From Planctomycetia bacterium (GTDB lineage Bacteria > Planctomycetota > Planctomycetia > Gemmatales > Gemmataceae), in contig SXID01000169.1 in NCBI GenBank assembly GCA_005772955.1, positions 1 through 39,452 of the forward strand: a stretch of 39,452 nucleotides of DNA, read 5' to 3'. A program made the position numbers and the translations under genes. Under the pieces are notes generated by a model. That model was not told the origin of the DNA, did no database searches, and worked only from the letters and a program-made list of their open reading frames with translations. Shown here in pieces: positions 4,209-33,717 of this stretch (positions are counted from its first letter, which is position 1; each line of letters begins with the position of its first letter).

Positions 4209-5828
4209 TTACTCTGCGCCATCCTTCGGCGGGACGTGGTACTTCGGCACCACCACCGCCACGTCACACAATCCCCACGGCGTCGAACCCGCGAACTTGT
4301 CGAGCAGCGACCCACTCCCCTTCCGCTTGAACGTGGTCGTTTCCACGATCTCCAGGCTCGGGGGCAGCGTGTTCTTGAAGCCGGTGAACGAGTCGCGGTG
4401 CGTGAACAGAATCACCGTTCGCGGGCGGTGGTGACAGTCCATCATGAGTTGGTTCACGTTCTTGGTGCGCACGTACCGCATATCGGACCGGTCGTGGTAG
4501 AACGCGAGCGAGTCACAGTGCCGCGGGAAACACACCACCGCCACATTGTGATCGCTGACGAACCGCCCCACCATCTCCGGGTTGCCATACGGTGACCGCT
4601 CACGCGCGTACCACGGCACCGCGACGTGATGCGCCATGAGCATGATCGCGGCCATTGCGCCGATCATCGCGCGTGTGCGGAGCGCGGTGTTCCACTTGGT
4701 ACGCGCAACGAACTCGCCCACCGCGAGGCACAGGAACGGGTACGCCGGGAGGATGTACGTCGGGAGTTTGCTGCCCGAGCAACTGAAGAAGAACACGCAC
4801 CACACGCCGGTGAGTAGCCAGAACCCGCCCGCGGACGACCGACTCGCGCTGTCTTCTGCCGATCCTCGCAGGAGCTTCCAGAAGTAAGCCGCGAGCAGGA
4901 GCGTCCCGGGCAGCAACCCACCGAGCAAGAGGGGCACGTAGTACCAGATCGGTTGCAGGTGGTCGAACGGCTGGAGGAACCGCATCACGTTGTGTTCCCA
5001 GAAGAAGTGCTTCAGGAACTGCGGCTCGCGGAGGTACATCGCGACGTACCACGGCAGATTCACCGCGAACACCACGCCGAAGAACACGAGGTACCAGCGG
5101 AAACCTACCCCCCCAACCCCCCTCCCTGAAGGGAGGGGGGTTGGTTCTTCTCTTCGCATCAAGAACCCATACGCCCACAGCGGCACGAACAACAGTACTT
5201 CCGAGATCGGGCCTTTCGTGAGGAACCCCAGCCCGGACGCGAGCGCCGCTGCGAGCCACCACCCGCGCTTCAGCGTGCCAGTCCGCACTGCCTCGAAGCC
5301 GCACAGCACGGATGTCGTCACACAGAATACGAGAAGGCCATCGAGTAAGAGCAGACGTGCGACGCTCACGAACCCCGGCGCAACAGAGAGCAGCAGCGCG
5401 GCCCAGAGCGCGCCACGCTCACCGACACTTCGTCGGCCAATGAGGTACACCGCGAGAATCGTGAGATGCACACACAACGCGGGCACGAGCCGGGCCGCTT
5501 CCGGTGTGACGCCAAACACTTTGTAGCTCAGAGCTGTCAGCCAGTACATCAGCGGCGGTTTGTCGAGATACGGTTCGCCTTGAAGCGTGGGCACGACCCA
5601 CGAACCGTTTTGCAGCATCTCTTTCGGAATCTGCGCGTAGCGACCCTCGTCCGGTTCCAGCAGGTGAAACCCGCGAGTCGGGTAGAGCAGCACCGCGGGG
5701 AGAAGCAGTACGAGGAGAAGCGAAAGCCGACGAACGCGAGTGTCCGCGTCAGCGGTTCCGGGAAAGAGGATGCCAGTAAAGAGAAACCGGCACCACGCGA
5801 CCACGCCCTTGTGTTTCGCCGCATCCAT
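4209..5828 (-). CDS. ArnT-like glycosyltransferase, GT39/GT83 superfamily
   Basis: This 539-residue polytopic membrane protein is of the ArnT / dolichyl-phosphate-mannose mannosyltransferase type. It uses polyprenyl-phosphate sugars to glycosylate envelope lipids or proteins on the outer face of the inner membrane. The signature EPDEGRYA (58-65) holds the catalytic acidic residues in the first periplasmic loop, and YLDKPPLMYW (87-96) follows as in ArnT. About eleven hydrophobic spans precede a soluble C-terminal domain from about residue 400. Residues 229-240 (PTPLPSGRGVGG) are encoded by a palindromic repeat, in a loop between two membrane spans. This looks like a tolerated in-frame insertion. 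The acceptor is unknown. It converges with the GspF gene. Confidence 0.88.
   Translation of the reverse strand: MDAAKHKGVVAWCRFLFTGILFPGTADADTRVRRLSLLLVLLLPAVLLYPTRGFHLLEPDEGRYAQIPKEMLQNGSWVVPTLQGEPYLDKPPLMYWLTALSYKVFGVTPEAARLVPALCVHLTILAVYLIGRRSVGERGALWAALLLSVAPGFVSVARLLLLDGLLVFCVTTSVLCGFEAVRTGTLKRGWWLAAALASGLGFLTKGPISEVLLFVPLWAYGFLMRREEPTPLPSGRGVGGVGFRWYLVFFGVVFAVNLPWYVAMYLREPQFLKHFFWEHNVMRFLQPFDHLQPIWYYVPLLLGGLLPGTLLLAAYFWKLLRGSAEDSASRSSAGGFWLLTGVWCVFFFSCSGSKLPTYILPAYPFLCLAVGEFVARTKWNTALRTRAMIGAMAAIMLMAHHVAVPWYARERSPYGNPEMVGRFVSDHNVAVVCFPRHCDSLAFYHDRSDMRYVRTKNVNQLMMDCHHRPRTVILFTHRDSFTGFKNTLPPSLEIVETTTFKRKGSGSLLDKFAGSTPWGLCDVAVVVPKYHVPPKDGAE
5113..5144. repeat. G/C-tract palindromic repeat inside the glycosyltransferase gene
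   Basis: The arms at 5113-5127 and 5130-5144 are exact 15-nt inverted copies with a 2-nt loop. The core (CCAACCCCCCTCCCT) matches the longer palindromes at 1292 and 16341. It is in frame with the glycosyltransferase and encodes part of a Gly/Pro-rich loop. Confidence 0.75.
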
Positions 5829-11413: not shown

Positions 11414-11833
11414 ATGAAAACCCGAACCAAAGCCGCAGTTTTCGCGCTCGCACTTCTCGCGAGCGCGGGATGTGGCACCGAGGCCAAACAACCGGACTTC
11501 CCCGATCTGAACCCGGTAAAAGGCGTGGTCACACGGAGCGGGCGATCCGTCAGTGGCGGGAGCGTCCGCTTCACACCCGACCCGGCCCAGTCGGATTTCG
11601 TCGTCAATTCCGAGGTCGGAACCGACGGCACGTTCTCGCTCACCACCGTGCGCACCACGGACTCGAAGGGCGAACGCAAGCCTGGCGCGCCGGCGGGCAA
11701 GTACAAGATGACCTACACCCCACCACTCGGTGATCAGGCCACTGGCGGGCCAACCGGCCCCGTCGAACTGCCGACGCCAGTCATGGTGAAAGTGGGCGAC
11801 AACAACGTGACGGTCGACTTGCCGAAGAAGTGA
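11414..11833 (+). CDS. Small lipoprotein with transthyretin-like fold
   Basis: This 139-residue protein has a lipoprotein signal ending in the lipobox LASAGC (Cys about 20). The mature part begins VKGVVTRSGRSVSGGSVRF and contains VGTDGTFSLTT and APAGKYKMTYTPP. This is the pattern of the carboxypeptidase regulatory / transthyretin-like beta domain that planctomycetes often encode just downstream of DUF1559 genes. It starts 5 bp after the DUF1559 stop, so the two are an operon. The last codons and stop lie inside the palindrome at 11825-11887. Role unknown; likely envelope-attached. Confidence 0.85.
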   Translation: MKTRTKAAVFALALLASAGCGTEAKQPDFPDLNPVKGVVTRSGRSVSGGSVRFTPDPAQSDFVVNSEVGTDGTFSLTTVRTTDSKGERKPGAPAGKYKMTYTPPLGDQATGGPTGPVELPTPVMVKVGDNNVTVDLPKK

Positions 11834-11887
11834 GTGTTTGGGTAGGTACCGCTCGGCAAGCGGCACCTACCCAAACACTCACTTCTT
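11825..11887. terminator. Perfect palindrome holding both convergent stop codons
   Basis: The arms at 11825-11847 and 11865-11887 are 23-nt exact inverted copies. After one mismatch a 5-bp inner stem (CCGCT/AGCGG) closes a 5-nt loop. The lipoprotein stop (11831-11833) and the yidC stop (11879-11881) both lie in the arms, along with an AAGAAG before each. It is likely to act as a two-way terminator or mRNA 3' end, although there is no U-tract on either side. Confidence 0.7.
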
Positions 11888-14395
11888 GCGCTTTTTCTTC
11901 TTGTCGCGGCGTGGGTTGTTCGGTGGCTGACCGTCGGGGCCATTGCTGTCGGGGCGGGTCGGGTCGTTACGGATCTGCCGCTTCGATTGCTCGTCGGCCT
12001 TCTTCTGCATCTCCTCCATCTTCTCCTGCAACTTCTCACGCAAGCGACCGAGCAACCCCTTGCTCCTTTTCCGCGCTTCCGCCACCGCAGATTCCGCCGT
12101 GGGCGAGAGTTTGCCGTTGGTCGAGACCGCTTTGGTCGTGCCGTTGGTTTTGTCGTCGTCGGAGCCGAAGCCGTCAATCTTCGGCTTCGGTATGAACTGA
12201 CGCTCGATGATCGCCCACCCGGTACTCACGATGAAGTACAGCGCCAGCCCCGCCGCGACCTTGTAGAAGAACACCGCCATCATGATCATCATCAACTTCA
12301 TCATCATCCGCTGCTGTTCCGCCTGCGGGTCGGTCGAGGGCGGCATCATCTTCGCTTGTTGGTAGAGCATCAGCCCCACCGCCAGAATCGGGAGCAGGTT
12401 GAAGTACGGTCCCAGGTAGATGAAGCTGCCGATGTCTTCCGTCGTGCTGATGAACGGGATGCTCTCGCTCCACCAAACGAGCATATCCGGCGCGGCGAGG
12501 TTGTCGCACCACAGGAACGAGTCGAGCCGGAAGAACACGCTCTCTTGAAGACAGAAGTACAGCCCCATCATGACGGGCATCTGGGCGAACAGCAACAGGC
12601 ACCCGCCCATCATCGCGAACGGGTTGGCCCCGTGCTGCATCATCAACCGTGTCTTCTCGCGGTTGTACGACGACATGTCGTCCTTGTATTTTTCCTGCAG
12701 TTTGTCGAACTCCGGCTTCAACTGCTTCTGTACCTCCATCATCTTCATGCTCATCGCGGTCTGCTTGCGGCTGGGCATCAGCAGCACGAGGCGCACGCAC
12801 ATGGTCAGCACGACGATGGAGAGCGCCCAACTCCCGAACACCCAGTGGATCTTCGCGAGAAGGAAGTGCATCAGGTTGGTCATCGCGATGACGAGATCGG
12901 CCCAGTAGATGGAACTGGCGAACCGACCGATCCACGTCTCGGAGCGGAAGTCGGTGATGGTGGAGAGCGTCAAGTCGTCCTTGTAGCGGTCCACCAAGGC
13001 ATCGCTGACCTTGCGATCCTTCGGCATGAGTTTCAACAGTCCGACCTTCGCTGGCCCGTTGTAGATCAGGTAACTGTGCGTCCTCTTTTCGCCCGGAGCG
13101 AGGTCGAGCGGTTCGGACGCGGCCCGCACGGTGATGTCGTCGAACTGCGTTTGCTGCGGGTCTTGTTTCTTGTCGAACGGGAGTTCCGTGGTGGCGCGGA
13201 CGTGGGACCACGGGTTCTTCATCCCGTTCTCGACCGTGTCGTCGGCTCGGTCGTCGACGGCGACACCACTCGCGAAGAACTGGTTGGCGACCACCATGTA
13301 CTTGAAAGTGTTGTCGTCGAGTTTGGCCTTCTCACCGCCGCGTTTGTTACCGATCGAGACGGAATCTTCGTACTGGCGCCGGGGCGTGCCGCTCTTGTCG
13401 CGCCAGCCGACGATCGCGACGCGGTAGATGCTGGTGTACCACTCGCCCTCGATGGGCAGCCCACGCGGGCCGGAGAGCTGATAGCGGAGTTTGCCCTCGT
13501 CGCCTTTCTTCCCTCCCGGCAGCCGCTCGATCTCGATCCGCAACCCGACGTGGTAATCCGTCGGTGCGAGCGTGTAGATCTTGCGGAACTTGACGTAGTA
13601 CGGCTTGCCCAGTTCCTTCTCGAACACGACCTTGTGGGCGCCGCCCTCTGGACGCTCTTCGGACGCGATCGTCCAGTTCGTCTCGCCCAAGAACGGGTCG
13701 GGATTCTGGTCATCTGTCGTTGGGTAGTGGAAGAGGGCGTAGCTCGGCTCCGCGAGTTCTGACAGGTCCGCCACCTTGCCCGGGCGCAGGCCCGGGACGG
13801 TGTACTCTTCTTTCAGCTTCTTCGACCGCGAGTACGGGGTGCCGGGGAGCAGGTGCAGCGAGAGCGCATCCTTCGTGGAGTTGCCGTCGTTGTCCTTCTG
13901 TTTGACTTCGCGCCCGAGCCGGTCGGCCTGGCCGAACTTCGGCAGCACGACCTGCTGCACAGCGCCGCCGCGAGTGGTGAGCAGTACGCGGTTGTAGAAA
14001 TCATTGGTGCCGAGTGCGACAAGTGTCGGCCGGTTGACGATATCGAAGATGCCGTTGGTGATTGCGGTGTGAACCGCGAGGGGATCAATGCCGCCAAGCA
14101 ACGGCACACCAACCTTCGGCGGTTCCGGAGGCTTGGGCTTGGGCAGGTCGAGTGCGACTGCCAAGCCGCCGCCGGCCGCGCCAATCGCTTGCTGCGCCAT
14201 CCGTTTCTTCTCGTCCGCTTCCGCGACCCGCTTCGCGTCCTCTTCGGCCCGCTTCTTGGCGTCCTCAAGGAGTGCATCGGCGGGATCAATCTTCTTGGGG
14301 GGCTTCGGCATGTTCTCGTTTGCGTACTGCCAGAGGAAGAACATCCCCCCCGCGAGAAACAGGAAGACGACGAAATTGAGAGCGTTCTTACGCAT
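11879..14395 (-). CDS. yidC: Membrane protein insertase YidC, long form
   Basis: This 838-residue YidC/Oxa1 family insertase places proteins in the inner membrane, alone or with SecYEG. It has an N-terminal anchor (about 6-24), a charged coiled linker (EEDAKRVAEADEKKRM), a large periplasmic beta domain (about 90-470), and the conserved five-helix core from about 500 to 740. The hydrophilic-groove arginine lies in CVRLVLLMPSRKQ, and the core contains a Met-rich cytoplasmic hairpin. A basic C-terminal tail of about 95 residues ends RRDKKKKRKK. E. coli YidC is 548 residues; the extra length is in the periplasmic domain, linker and tail. Extended basic tails that bind ribosomes have been described for the planctomycete Rhodopirellula baltica. 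No rpmH, rnpA or mnmE lies beside it. Confidence 0.95.
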   Translation of the reverse strand: MRKNALNFVVFLFLAGGMFFLWQYANENMPKPPKKIDPADALLEDAKKRAEEDAKRVAEADEKKRMAQQAIGAAGGGLAVALDLPKPKPPEPPKVGVPLLGGIDPLAVHTAITNGIFDIVNRPTLVALGTNDFYNRVLLTTRGGAVQQVVLPKFGQADRLGREVKQKDNDGNSTKDALSLHLLPGTPYSRSKKLKEEYTVPGLRPGKVADLSELAEPSYALFHYPTTDDQNPDPFLGETNWTIASEERPEGGAHKVVFEKELGKPYYVKFRKIYTLAPTDYHVGLRIEIERLPGGKKGDEGKLRYQLSGPRGLPIEGEWYTSIYRVAIVGWRDKSGTPRRQYEDSVSIGNKRGGEKAKLDDNTFKYMVVANQFFASGVAVDDRADDTVENGMKNPWSHVRATTELPFDKKQDPQQTQFDDITVRAASEPLDLAPGEKRTHSYLIYNGPAKVGLLKLMPKDRKVSDALVDRYKDDLTLSTITDFRSETWIGRFASSIYWADLVIAMTNLMHFLLAKIHWVFGSWALSIVVLTMCVRLVLLMPSRKQTAMSMKMMEVQKQLKPEFDKLQEKYKDDMSSYNREKTRLMMQHGANPFAMMGGCLLLFAQMPVMMGLYFCLQESVFFRLDSFLWCDNLAAPDMLVWWSESIPFISTTEDIGSFIYLGPYFNLLPILAVGLMLYQQAKMMPPSTDPQAEQQRMMMKLMMIMMAVFFYKVAAGLALYFIVSTGWAIIERQFIPKPKIDGFGSDDDKTNGTTKAVSTNGKLSPTAESAVAEARKRSKGLLGRLREKLQEKMEEMQKKADEQSKRQIRNDPTRPDSNGPDGQPPNNPRRDKKKKRKK

Positions 14396-31846: not shown

Positions 31847-31927
31847 CAATCAGCAGCCGGCGCTCGCCCTCAGCGCTACCCCGCGTGTATCATCGGAGTG
31901 CCCAGTCTACGCGGAGCGAGCGCTAGC

Positions 31928-32923
31928 ATGACCACACTCACCTGCCCAAAGTGCCGACAGCGGATGACTGACGCCGCGCTCGATGTCGGGCAGTGCCCCG
32001 CGTGCGGCTTCCCCATCGACGGCCCGCTCGTTTTCAACGGCACCGCGAAGCGGCGTTCCCCGGCGCTGCTGTTGGCGGTCACGGGCGTACTGGTCGCCGG
32101 TGCCGGCGCCGCGGGGTACGCTTACTACACGCAGGCGAAACCTTCATCGCCTGAAGTAGCCGACGCGAGGAACGATGGATCGCCCGGCACGCCGGTGAAG
32201 CACATCGCGCCGTTCCCACACACACCGAAACCACGCGACCCATCAGGCACGGATCAGCCCATACCGCCAAAGCCCGCTGATCCAAAGGACATGACCGGCA
32301 CCAAGGATCCGCCGCCAGTCGTGGAACCCAAGCGAGTCGGGCCGCGACCGCTTGGAGTCGTGATGAAAGTCGATCCTAAGATCGCGCCAAAACGCCACTT
32401 CGACCACCCCGACGACACGGCCGCGATTCCCGACCTCAACAGCGGCGACCGCGTCGTTCTCACAGGGAAAGTGCGTGCCCTCCGCATCGGCTCCGTGAAC
32501 GGCAAAGGCTCTATCGATGCGTCGGGACTGATCGCGGAGGAGATCGTGATTACTGGCGACCTGAACGCCGAAGCGGTCGTCACGCTGAACTGCCCACGCG
32601 GAAAGGTAACGATCGGCGGCTACGTCGGCGGAATCTCGAAGCTCACCGTGCTCGCGCCCGGCGGCGAGGTCATTGTGCTCGCGGACTCCGGCCGGTTGAC
32701 CGGCAGCGCGGTAACGACCGTGACTGCGAAGCGCCTGGAGGTTGCAGGGAAACTGCTCGGCGCCGCACGGCTCAACGCCGCGCTCACCACCGGCGGTTCG
32801 CTGAAACTGACTTCGACAGAAGAAGGCGCGATCGTCACTTACAAGAAGGCCGCGGCAAGCGACCCGGCCCTGATCGTGGAACGCGGCATCATCCGCGGCG
32901 GGGCGAAGGTTCTCGCGGAGTGA
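31928..32923 (+). CDS. Zinc-ribbon, single-span protein with beta-solenoid-like C-terminus
   Basis: This 331-residue protein has an N-terminal zinc ribbon (Cys6, Cys9, Cys23, Cys26 in LTCPKC and GQCPACGFP), one membrane span (about 47-64), a Pro/Asp-rich linker (to about 150), then a region of short repeating strands. VNGKGSIDASGLIAEEIVIT, LNAEAVVTLNCPRGKVTIGG and VTAKRLEVAGKLLGAARLNA are examples, and they read like a right-handed beta-helix or bactofilin-like fold. I recognise no named family. The ATG at 31928 is preferred to 31898 because it leads straight into the ribbon. It converges with plsC across a 35-nt palindrome. The plan (cytoplasmic ribbon, span, outside domain) matches that of the protein at 22058. 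Confidence 0.75.
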   Translation: MTTLTCPKCRQRMTDAALDVGQCPACGFPIDGPLVFNGTAKRRSPALLLAVTGVLVAGAGAAGYAYYTQAKPSSPEVADARNDGSPGTPVKHIAPFPHTPKPRDPSGTDQPIPPKPADPKDMTGTKDPPPVVEPKRVGPRPLGVVMKVDPKIAPKRHFDHPDDTAAIPDLNSGDRVVLTGKVRALRIGSVNGKGSIDASGLIAEEIVITGDLNAEAVVTLNCPRGKVTIGGYVGGISKLTVLAPGGEVIVLADSGRLTGSAVTTVTAKRLEVAGKLLGAARLNAALTTGGSLKLTSTEEGAIVTYKKAAASDPALIVERGIIRGGAKVLAE

Positions 32924-32928
32924 GCCCT

Positions 32929-33043
32929 CGCCTTGAAAGTAGTAGGCACACTCCGTGTGCCGTCGCTTCGCAACTCGATTCCGAATCGCGGGTCTGAAGT
33001 GCAGAACAACGGCACACGGAGTGTGCCTACTACTTTCAAGGCG
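32929..33043. terminator. Perfect 35-nt palindrome between convergent genes
   Basis: The arms at 32929-32963 and 33009-33043 are exact inverted copies of 35 nt. Inside each arm GGCACAC and GTGTGCC form a further small hairpin. The palindrome fills the space between the zinc-ribbon gene stop and plsC stop. It is likely to be a two-way terminator or a nested repeat element. Confidence 0.65.
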
Positions 33044-33048
33044 GGCTG

Positions 33049-33717
33049 TCACTTCCGCCGCAGGCGCACGGCTTCCGCGTGTTGCGCCACAATCGCCCGG
33101 AACAAGTCGCCTAGCATCGGCTCGCGTTTCATGCTCGCGTAGCGTGCTGGGTCGATCGGTTCCCCGATCGAGATCGCGATCGAACTCGGTTCGGGCGGCA
33201 GCAACAGCGGCGAGAACTTCGGCCACTTCATGAACCGCGACCACGCGGCGAACGCGCCCGCGATTCCCACGGGCACGATCGGACACTTCACACGCTTGAT
33301 GAGCAGCGACACGCCCGGTTTCAGCGGTTGAACCTCGCCGTCGTGCGTGCGTTCGCCCTCCGGGAACATCAGCACAGCTTGCCCCTGACCAAGCGCATCG
33401 AGTACCGCCTGGATGCCGTCTTTCCCCATGTTGCGGTCAATCGGGATCGCGTTGAGGCTCCTGATGAGTGGTGCCAAACCGCGTTGCTCGAAGAGGGTCT
33501 TGCGTGCGAGGTACGAGAGGTAGCGGCGGGACGCGAGGCCGACCATCACCGGGTCGAACATCGACTGGTGGTTCGCGAGGAGCAGCACCGGACCGGTGCG
33601 AGGCATGTTCTTCCAGCCCGCCCGCCTGATGCTGAACCCGAACGTGAAGAACGTAAACGAGGACCAGAAGACGGTGTCGTACCACATGCGGCCGACGAAG
33701 TTCGGGCGGTCAGCCAT
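33049..33717 (-). CDS. plsC: 1-acyl-sn-glycerol-3-phosphate acyltransferase
   Basis: This 222-residue acyltransferase makes phosphatidic acid from lysophosphatidic acid at the inner membrane. The catalytic NHQSMFDP gives the HX4D motif (His50, Asp55), and the glycerophosphate site FPEGERTHDG is at 118-127. A hydrophobic N-terminal stretch (about 15-30) likely binds the membrane. The length is usual for short PlsC. It lies 31 bp after cmk on the same strand and is probably co-transcribed; the cmk-plsC order is found in other bacteria too. The start is ATG. Confidence 0.92.
   Translation of the reverse strand: MADRPNFVGRMWYDTVFWSSFTFFTFGFSIRRAGWKNMPRTGPVLLLANHQSMFDPVMVGLASRRYLSYLARKTLFEQRGLAPLIRSLNAIPIDRNMGKDGIQAVLDALGQGQAVLMFPEGERTHDGEVQPLKPGVSLLIKRVKCPIVPVGIAGAFAAWSRFMKWPKFSPLLLPPEPSSIAISIGEPIDPARYASMKREPMLGDLFRAIVAQHAEAVRLRRK

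Follow-up and report, generated by a model that had tools for sequence, protein, structure and literature searches.

A REP-type palindrome containing the stop codons of two convergent genes in a Planctomycetia bacterium

Two convergent genes of a Planctomycetia bacterium (family Gemmataceae) end within one and the same palindrome, and both of the encoded proteins finish on Lys-Lys-stop. The question raised by this locus is whether the palindrome made the two protein ends alike, or whether it was assembled around ends that were already there. The locus lies on contig SXID01000169.1, in a stretch of 39,452 nt that was analysed as a whole and is called the window below. The features at the junction are as follows (positions in the window).

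11414..11833, + strand: lipoprotein-like gene, an ORF of 139 aa ending ...VDLPKK-TGA
11825..11853, + strand: left arm of the palindrome, comprising the lipoprotein gene's two final Lys codons and its TGA, an 8-bp spacer, GTAG and one half of the REP stem
11834..11841, + strand: spacer GTGTTTGG, from the lipoprotein stop to GTAG, mirrored at 11871-11878 (read off the sequence)
11842..11870, - strand: two-headed core derived from a GTAG REP, GTAGGTGCCGCTTGCCGAGCGG on the - strand
11859..11887, - strand: right arm of the palindrome, comprising the two final Lys codons and the TGA of yidC, an identical 8-bp spacer, GTAG and the other half of the REP stem
11888..11903, + strand: T-rich tail GCGCTTTTTCTTCTTG, downstream of the hairpin for the lipoprotein transcript and antisense of the Lys-rich end of YidC
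11879..14395, - strand: yidC, membrane insertase, an ORF of 838 aa ending ...KKKKRKK-TGA (PF02096, E 1.1e-35; PF14849, E 9.1e-6)

The original prediction described a single palindrome holding both stops, and this description was borne out. The two arms are 29 nt each, 97% complementary and 5 nt apart; there is one mismatch (11848/11864), the outer 23 nt are perfect, and the AAGAAG-TGA of both genes lies inside. From the outside inwards, the left arm consists of AAGAAG (11825-11830), TGA (11831-11833), GTGTTTGG (11834-11841), GTAG (11842-11845), GT, the mismatch, and CCGCT. The loop is CGGCA (11854-11858), beyond which the left arm is repeated as its mirror image, and the gap between the two stops is 45 bp. 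The RNA predicted from one strand of the junction folds at -55.3 kcal/mol (z -8.7) and that from the other at -61.1 kcal/mol (z -9.9), and 0 of 200 shuffles do as well. Since these folds are far better than those of shuffles, the palindrome is not due to chance, yet equally strong ones occur about 25 times per Mb in this genome. Across 1,156,152 bases of it, 80 hairpins score at least 15 and 29 score at least 26, the latter being the score of the junction palindrome, compared with none in one block-shuffled copy.

The identity of YidC is backed by the Pfam family 60KD_IMP (E 1.1e-35), while the lipoprotein-like protein has no Pfam family at E 0.001. Strong matches to the latter (51-73% identity, at least 117 bits) are present in 7 of the 18 other genomes of the genus; these were taken as orthologues and weaker ones as paralogues. 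Of 8 orthologues, counting the present gene, 6 have the gene end AAGAAGTGA; two more distant matches, L062 and L063, are excluded from this count. Among the 18 genomes with a readable YidC C-terminus, again including the present one, YidC ends in Lys in all 18 and in Lys-Lys in 8, and the Lys ends of relatives are followed by differing hairpins or by none.

The closest genome searched, G016, has a YidC that is 81% identical. (A scan of genome contigs gave 7 loci, the closest of which, L215 at 80%, is apparently G016 again, as contig number and match coordinate agree.) Here the two genes likewise converge, their stops lying 47 bp apart; YidC ends AAGAAG-TAG and the lipoprotein gene AAGAAG-TGA, so that both proteins end in Lys-Lys-stop. 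The inner hairpin of the G016 junction is unrelated, however, and the outer flanks are not complementary past AAGAAGT. It had been proposed that both proteins received their Lys-Lys-stop from an inverted copy, and that relatives with unrelated arms and the same protein ends would speak against this; G016 is such a relative. Because both Lys-Lys ends exist in G016 without the palindrome, and because of the ends seen in the orthologues, the likeness of the two ends does not come from the palindrome. On this comparison, the Lys-Lys-stop ends are older than the palindrome and are present without it in relatives. As for the related proposal, that the two 3' ends change in step, the one close genome pair compared shows no joint change of both ends. 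Copying across the junction within the 8-bp spacer may still have taken place. The G016 junction was also considered as the site of an older REP, an idea that was dropped since the GTAG-tagged hairpin there has one exact-pattern match in G016, namely itself.

The core of the palindrome is of REP type and is derived from a GTAG-tagged REP. The core GTAG-GTGCCGCTTGCCGAGCGGCAC recurs in the same genome and in 4 of the 18 other genomes of the genus. The one-sided pattern GTAGGTRCCGCTYGNCRAGCGGYAC (at most 2 mismatches) has 12 matches at 9 sites of the genome, where a reversed-pattern control has 2; in the congeners G008, G011, G016 and G017 it has 76, 151, 86 and 150 matches, respectively (controls 0-2). 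A stricter, two-sided pattern identifies 3 sites in the genome, compared with 0 for its reversed control, and is found, with at most 3 mismatches, in 5 of 19 genus genomes, this one included. Among the matches listed, the - strand reading GTAGGTGCCGCTTGCCGAGCGG is the commonest REP orientation, and facing REP pairs roughly 75-85 bp apart are frequent among the G008 matches listed. When the genome was searched with the junction sequence itself, partial copies were obtained at other places. These contain the core and only part of the flanks, and the 63-bp palindrome was therefore rejected as a mobile unit in its entirety.

Between convergent genes lie 17 of 48 placed REP sites and inside predicted genes 6, and 25 of the 42 non-intragenic sites are no more than 15 nt from a stop; these counts depend on a rough gene caller and on loci partly fetched with the two-sided pattern, and hence are biased. 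According to PMC3733652, the GTAG REP superfamily extends to Planctomycetes, is located for the most part in gaps between genes that run in the same direction or converge, and often provides with its ends the TAG stop of the adjacent gene. The junction core agrees with such elements in that GTAG adjoins a palindrome of 20-40 bp (11842-11870), in that many dispersed copies exist in the genome and its close relatives (few of them in the genome itself), and in that the copies are mostly extragenic and downstream of genes. It differs in that GTAG should be unpaired at one end, and is here found at both ends and paired. GTAG REPs are expected to have an associated Y1 (RAYT) transposase. Y1 transposases (PF01797) are encoded in 16 of 19 genus genomes; the matches in the present genome are short or weak. 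None of 10 Y1-transposase loci, each read for at most about 1.5 kb per side and only 3 of them from REP-rich genomes (G008, G011, G017), contained a copy of this REP.

A GTAG at both ends was observed in 8 of 108 distinct REP sites read (116 contexts, two-headed sites being counted from each end), a share biased upwards as these are sites in fetched loci, some of them fetched with the two-sided pattern; the other 100 have no CTAC on the far side. In 114 contexts the run length beyond the 8-bp stem is 0-2 for one-headed sites and 4-8 or 21 for two-headed sites, the junction being the one with 21. In 6 of the 8 two-headed sites only 0-4 further flank bases match. Two-headed sites make up 6 of the 17 REP sites classed as convergent, and all six have one or both stops no more than 10 nt away. 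A GTAG at both ends would be expected if the cores of a facing pair, which are palindromic themselves, recombined with each other.

Stop codons inside inverted repeats are also found at other gene ends. In 1.16 Mb of the genome there are 132 convergent pairs with a gap of at most 200 nt, 36 of which hold an inverted repeat scoring at least 14; at least one stop lies in an arm in 10 and both stops in 4, these counts being approximate because they come from a simple gene caller and from unshuffled sequence alone. Beside the junction, three convergent pairs have both predicted stops in inverted repeats (L225, ~4997-5085; L112, ~4960-5096; L247, ~4775-4792). In 12 of 18 genomes of the genus (own included; loci L026-L045), the yidC stop is followed by a hairpin that scores at least 10 and whose sequence varies by genome; among the six genomes that lack it are two whose contigs end within 100 nt. 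Random windows of the genome contain such a hairpin in 22 of 400 cases; since they were not matched for gene ends, the comparison demonstrates a hairpin at a gene end and nothing special to yidC. The hairpin after yidC is thus kept in place and not in sequence, which argues for use of a hairpin and not of a particular sequence.

Related structures were noted elsewhere. The window contains a second convergent pair (31898-32923 on the + strand and 33049-33717, an acyltransferase, on the - strand), and a 54-nt inverted repeat at 32919-33053, 85% complementary, reaches both of its TGA stops. Its basis is a different GTAG repeat (GTAGGCACACTCCGTGTGCC), present as a facing pair and with many matches in G016 and G008. 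In L280 (G008), on the reverse complement and past a gene match ending at ~2545, there are perfect 41-nt arms that apparently start at the gene's stop (GTGAGCGAGCGGCGCG...). Yet another GTAG..CTAC repeat (GTAGGACAGGCT...) is found at L101 (12135-12192), L114 (1472-1525) and L248 (12278-12332), with a predicted stop codon inside an arm at L101 and L114. For L253 (16500-16680), further copies of a 74-nt stretch next to a REP pair occur in G005 and G016, and a related inverted sequence lies on the far side.

The spacer GTGTTTGG is the sole part of the arms that is explained neither by the REP nor by the protein ends. Together with the adjoining GTAG it has only two other 3-mismatch matches in the 1.16-Mb sample. 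Immediately upstream of its GTAG, this REP prefers a purine at -1 and a pyrimidine at -4. From REP base frequencies, the chance of an 8-bp spacer match was estimated by hand as ~6e-5 per site, or ~5e-4 over the 8 two-headed sites, and with so low a value the mirrored spacer is not accounted for by the REP. When the 13 post-stop bases are compared with G016 without gaps, 8 match on the yidC side and 2 on the lipoprotein side (counted by eye); the lipoprotein side of G016 also has GTAGG if a 3-nt gap is allowed. On the yidC side, AAGAAGTGAGTG is common to G002 and G004, which do not have the junction's palindrome. Taken together with the commonest REP orientation among the matches listed, these comparisons point on balance to a small copy from the yidC side into the spacer, as template switching would give, although in G016 the junction hairpin has its GTAG on the lipoprotein side. 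With one relative compared, such a copy is possible but unproven.

The account that we consider probable is that of a REP-based palindrome combined with older protein ends and a partly copied or selected spacer, working as a 3' hairpin. A GTAG-tagged REP, with the tag on both ends, occupies the 45-bp gap between the convergent genes. Probably, its two-headed form is what recombination between the cores of two head-to-head REPs has left, and each ancestral GTAG tag would have been located a few bases past one stop codon. In each arm, the outer 9 bp (AAGAAGTGA) are the older Lys-Lys-stop ends, which are alike by chance and lengthen the palindrome into both genes. The 8-bp spacers may owe their likeness in part to the sequence that the REP prefers before its tag, and in part to a small inverted copy or to selection favouring a longer stem. 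What the sequences show is the REP-type core and, in relatives, the protein ends without the palindrome; the collapse of the REP pair, the spacer copying and the role of the hairpin are steps that we infer. The junction is therefore real, made of known parts, and neat but mostly ordinary. What is unusual is the 17-bp pairing beyond the GTAG tags, 9 bp of which are old protein ends and 8 bp of which may be a small inverted copy. The result is a striking shared gene end without a shared history, one long palindrome having been put together from a dispersed repeat and the older ends of two proteins.

Other origins of the palindrome can be weighed against this account. Inversion or gene conversion might have made both protein ends alike, as the identical outer 23 nt of the arms would suggest, but this is very improbable: G016 has both Lys-Lys ends without the palindrome, and the ends occur separately, in 6 of 8 lipoprotein orthologues and in 8 of 18 YidC proteins. 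The inverted copy was ruled out on these grounds as the source of both ends. That the palindrome is an artefact of assembly or amplification is hardly credible, even in a draft genome of 278 contigs, with the same two genes converging in G016 and the core recurring in other genomes. It is unlikely, if less so, that an older terminator hairpin took up a REP in its loop and that the stem of this hairpin now forms the outer arms. Hairpins after yidC are indeed frequent in the genus (12 of 18), and PMC3733652 describes REP dimers within longer palindromes from A. variabilis and H. neapolitanus; among the relatives read, however, none has AAGAAGTGAGTGTTTGG paired without the REP, and the G016 hairpin is unrelated.

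A REP-seeded template switch would bear on the spacer in particular. The replicating strand would fold back at the REP, copy the yidC-side flank (GTAG and GTGTTTGG) onto the lipoprotein side, and rejoin at the shared AAGAAGTGA. Consistent with this are the ungapped alignment of the spacer with the yidC side of G016 (8 of 13 bases), the occurrence of AAGAAGTGAGTG in G002 and G004, and the fact that none of the 5 other lipoprotein orthologues ending AAGAAGTGA has GTG after the stop. The commonest REP orientation among the matches listed also puts the original GTAG on the yidC side. At a two-headed site in the same genome (L010, contig C124) the flanks match at 9 of 10 bases, and one flank lies inside a predicted gene to which the repeat supplies the TAG; a GTAG..CTAC repeat at L104 (5027-5063) has 15 matching flank bases and only weak matches elsewhere in the sample. 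Perfect hairpin stems are known products of template switching (PMC8794818). By contrast, there is only one close relative, its junction hairpin carries GTAG on the lipoprotein side, and that side also matches GTAGG once a 3-nt gap is allowed; the spacer is partly explained by the GTAG context preference, and 6 of 8 two-headed sites have only the 0-4 further matching bases given above. We regard such a switch as possible, but less likely than not.

Were this template switch to hold, gene ends could acquire new, locus-specific hairpins from REPs. A wider version, in which REPs in these planctomycetes seed directional palindrome growth, is speculative and rather unlikely: fold-back copying would mirror one gene's flank onto the other and halt at chance microhomology (e.g., a shared Lys-Lys-stop), whereby one hairpin gains the stops of two genes. 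Flank extension as a general REP law was rejected, since in several of the longest-extension GTAG..CTAC pairs in the 1.16 Mb the flanks stem from other repeats (L098 and L240, L258, L261; also L253, by its many matches). Ten control tetramers are also found within long hairpins. The long-extension pair L234 is not repeated, and L104 remains a locus-specific case of flank extension. No clean orthologous empty site was found in G016 for the C124 site, the L253 site or the second junction of the window. For C124, G005 has a similar gene end (TGCCTTCCCCGTTAG), and a coding-side origin is weakly supported there.

Under the account of a REP-based palindrome with older protein ends, its most likely role is to provide both mRNAs with a 3' hairpin that protects their ends and acts as a barrier to convergent read-through. 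So strong a stem would be expected to withstand 3' exonucleases and to impede convergent read-through, and it may also slow the ribosome or termination at both stops. A consensus terminator scan called no intrinsic terminator at the junction, and overall the scan gave no excess over shuffles (5 vs 5.6). An intrinsic terminator would have a GC-rich stem with an immediate T-run; here the T-rich stretch starts 4 nt past the full stem and, for the + transcript, is the antisense of the Lys-rich tail of YidC.

Bidirectional intrinsic terminators provide a strong stem common to convergent genes. The junction resembles them in its shared strong stem and in the T-rich tail for the + transcript, but it fails the consensus scan and is without a clear T-run for the yidC transcript. 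In E. coli, REPs at most 15 nt from a stop are reported to stall ribosomes (PMC12306157). The likeness to these lies in a hairpin right at the stop, with a predicted effect on termination and mRNA decay; by contrast, the junction stem contains the stop and would serve two genes. Template switching (PMC8794818, PMC7202029) creates or corrects hairpins and can make or perfect inverted arms locally, whereas at the junction such an event is suggested. The junction also shares several features with the GTAG REP superfamily (PMC3733652): a GTAG tag by a short palindrome, dispersed copies, facing pairs, a position downstream of genes or between convergent genes, and overlap with stop codons. The canonical REP form, however, does not have GTAG paired at both ends, whereas the junction is tagged at both ends and its pairing runs 17 bp beyond, into both genes. 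It is thus a two-headed derivative rather than a canonical member.
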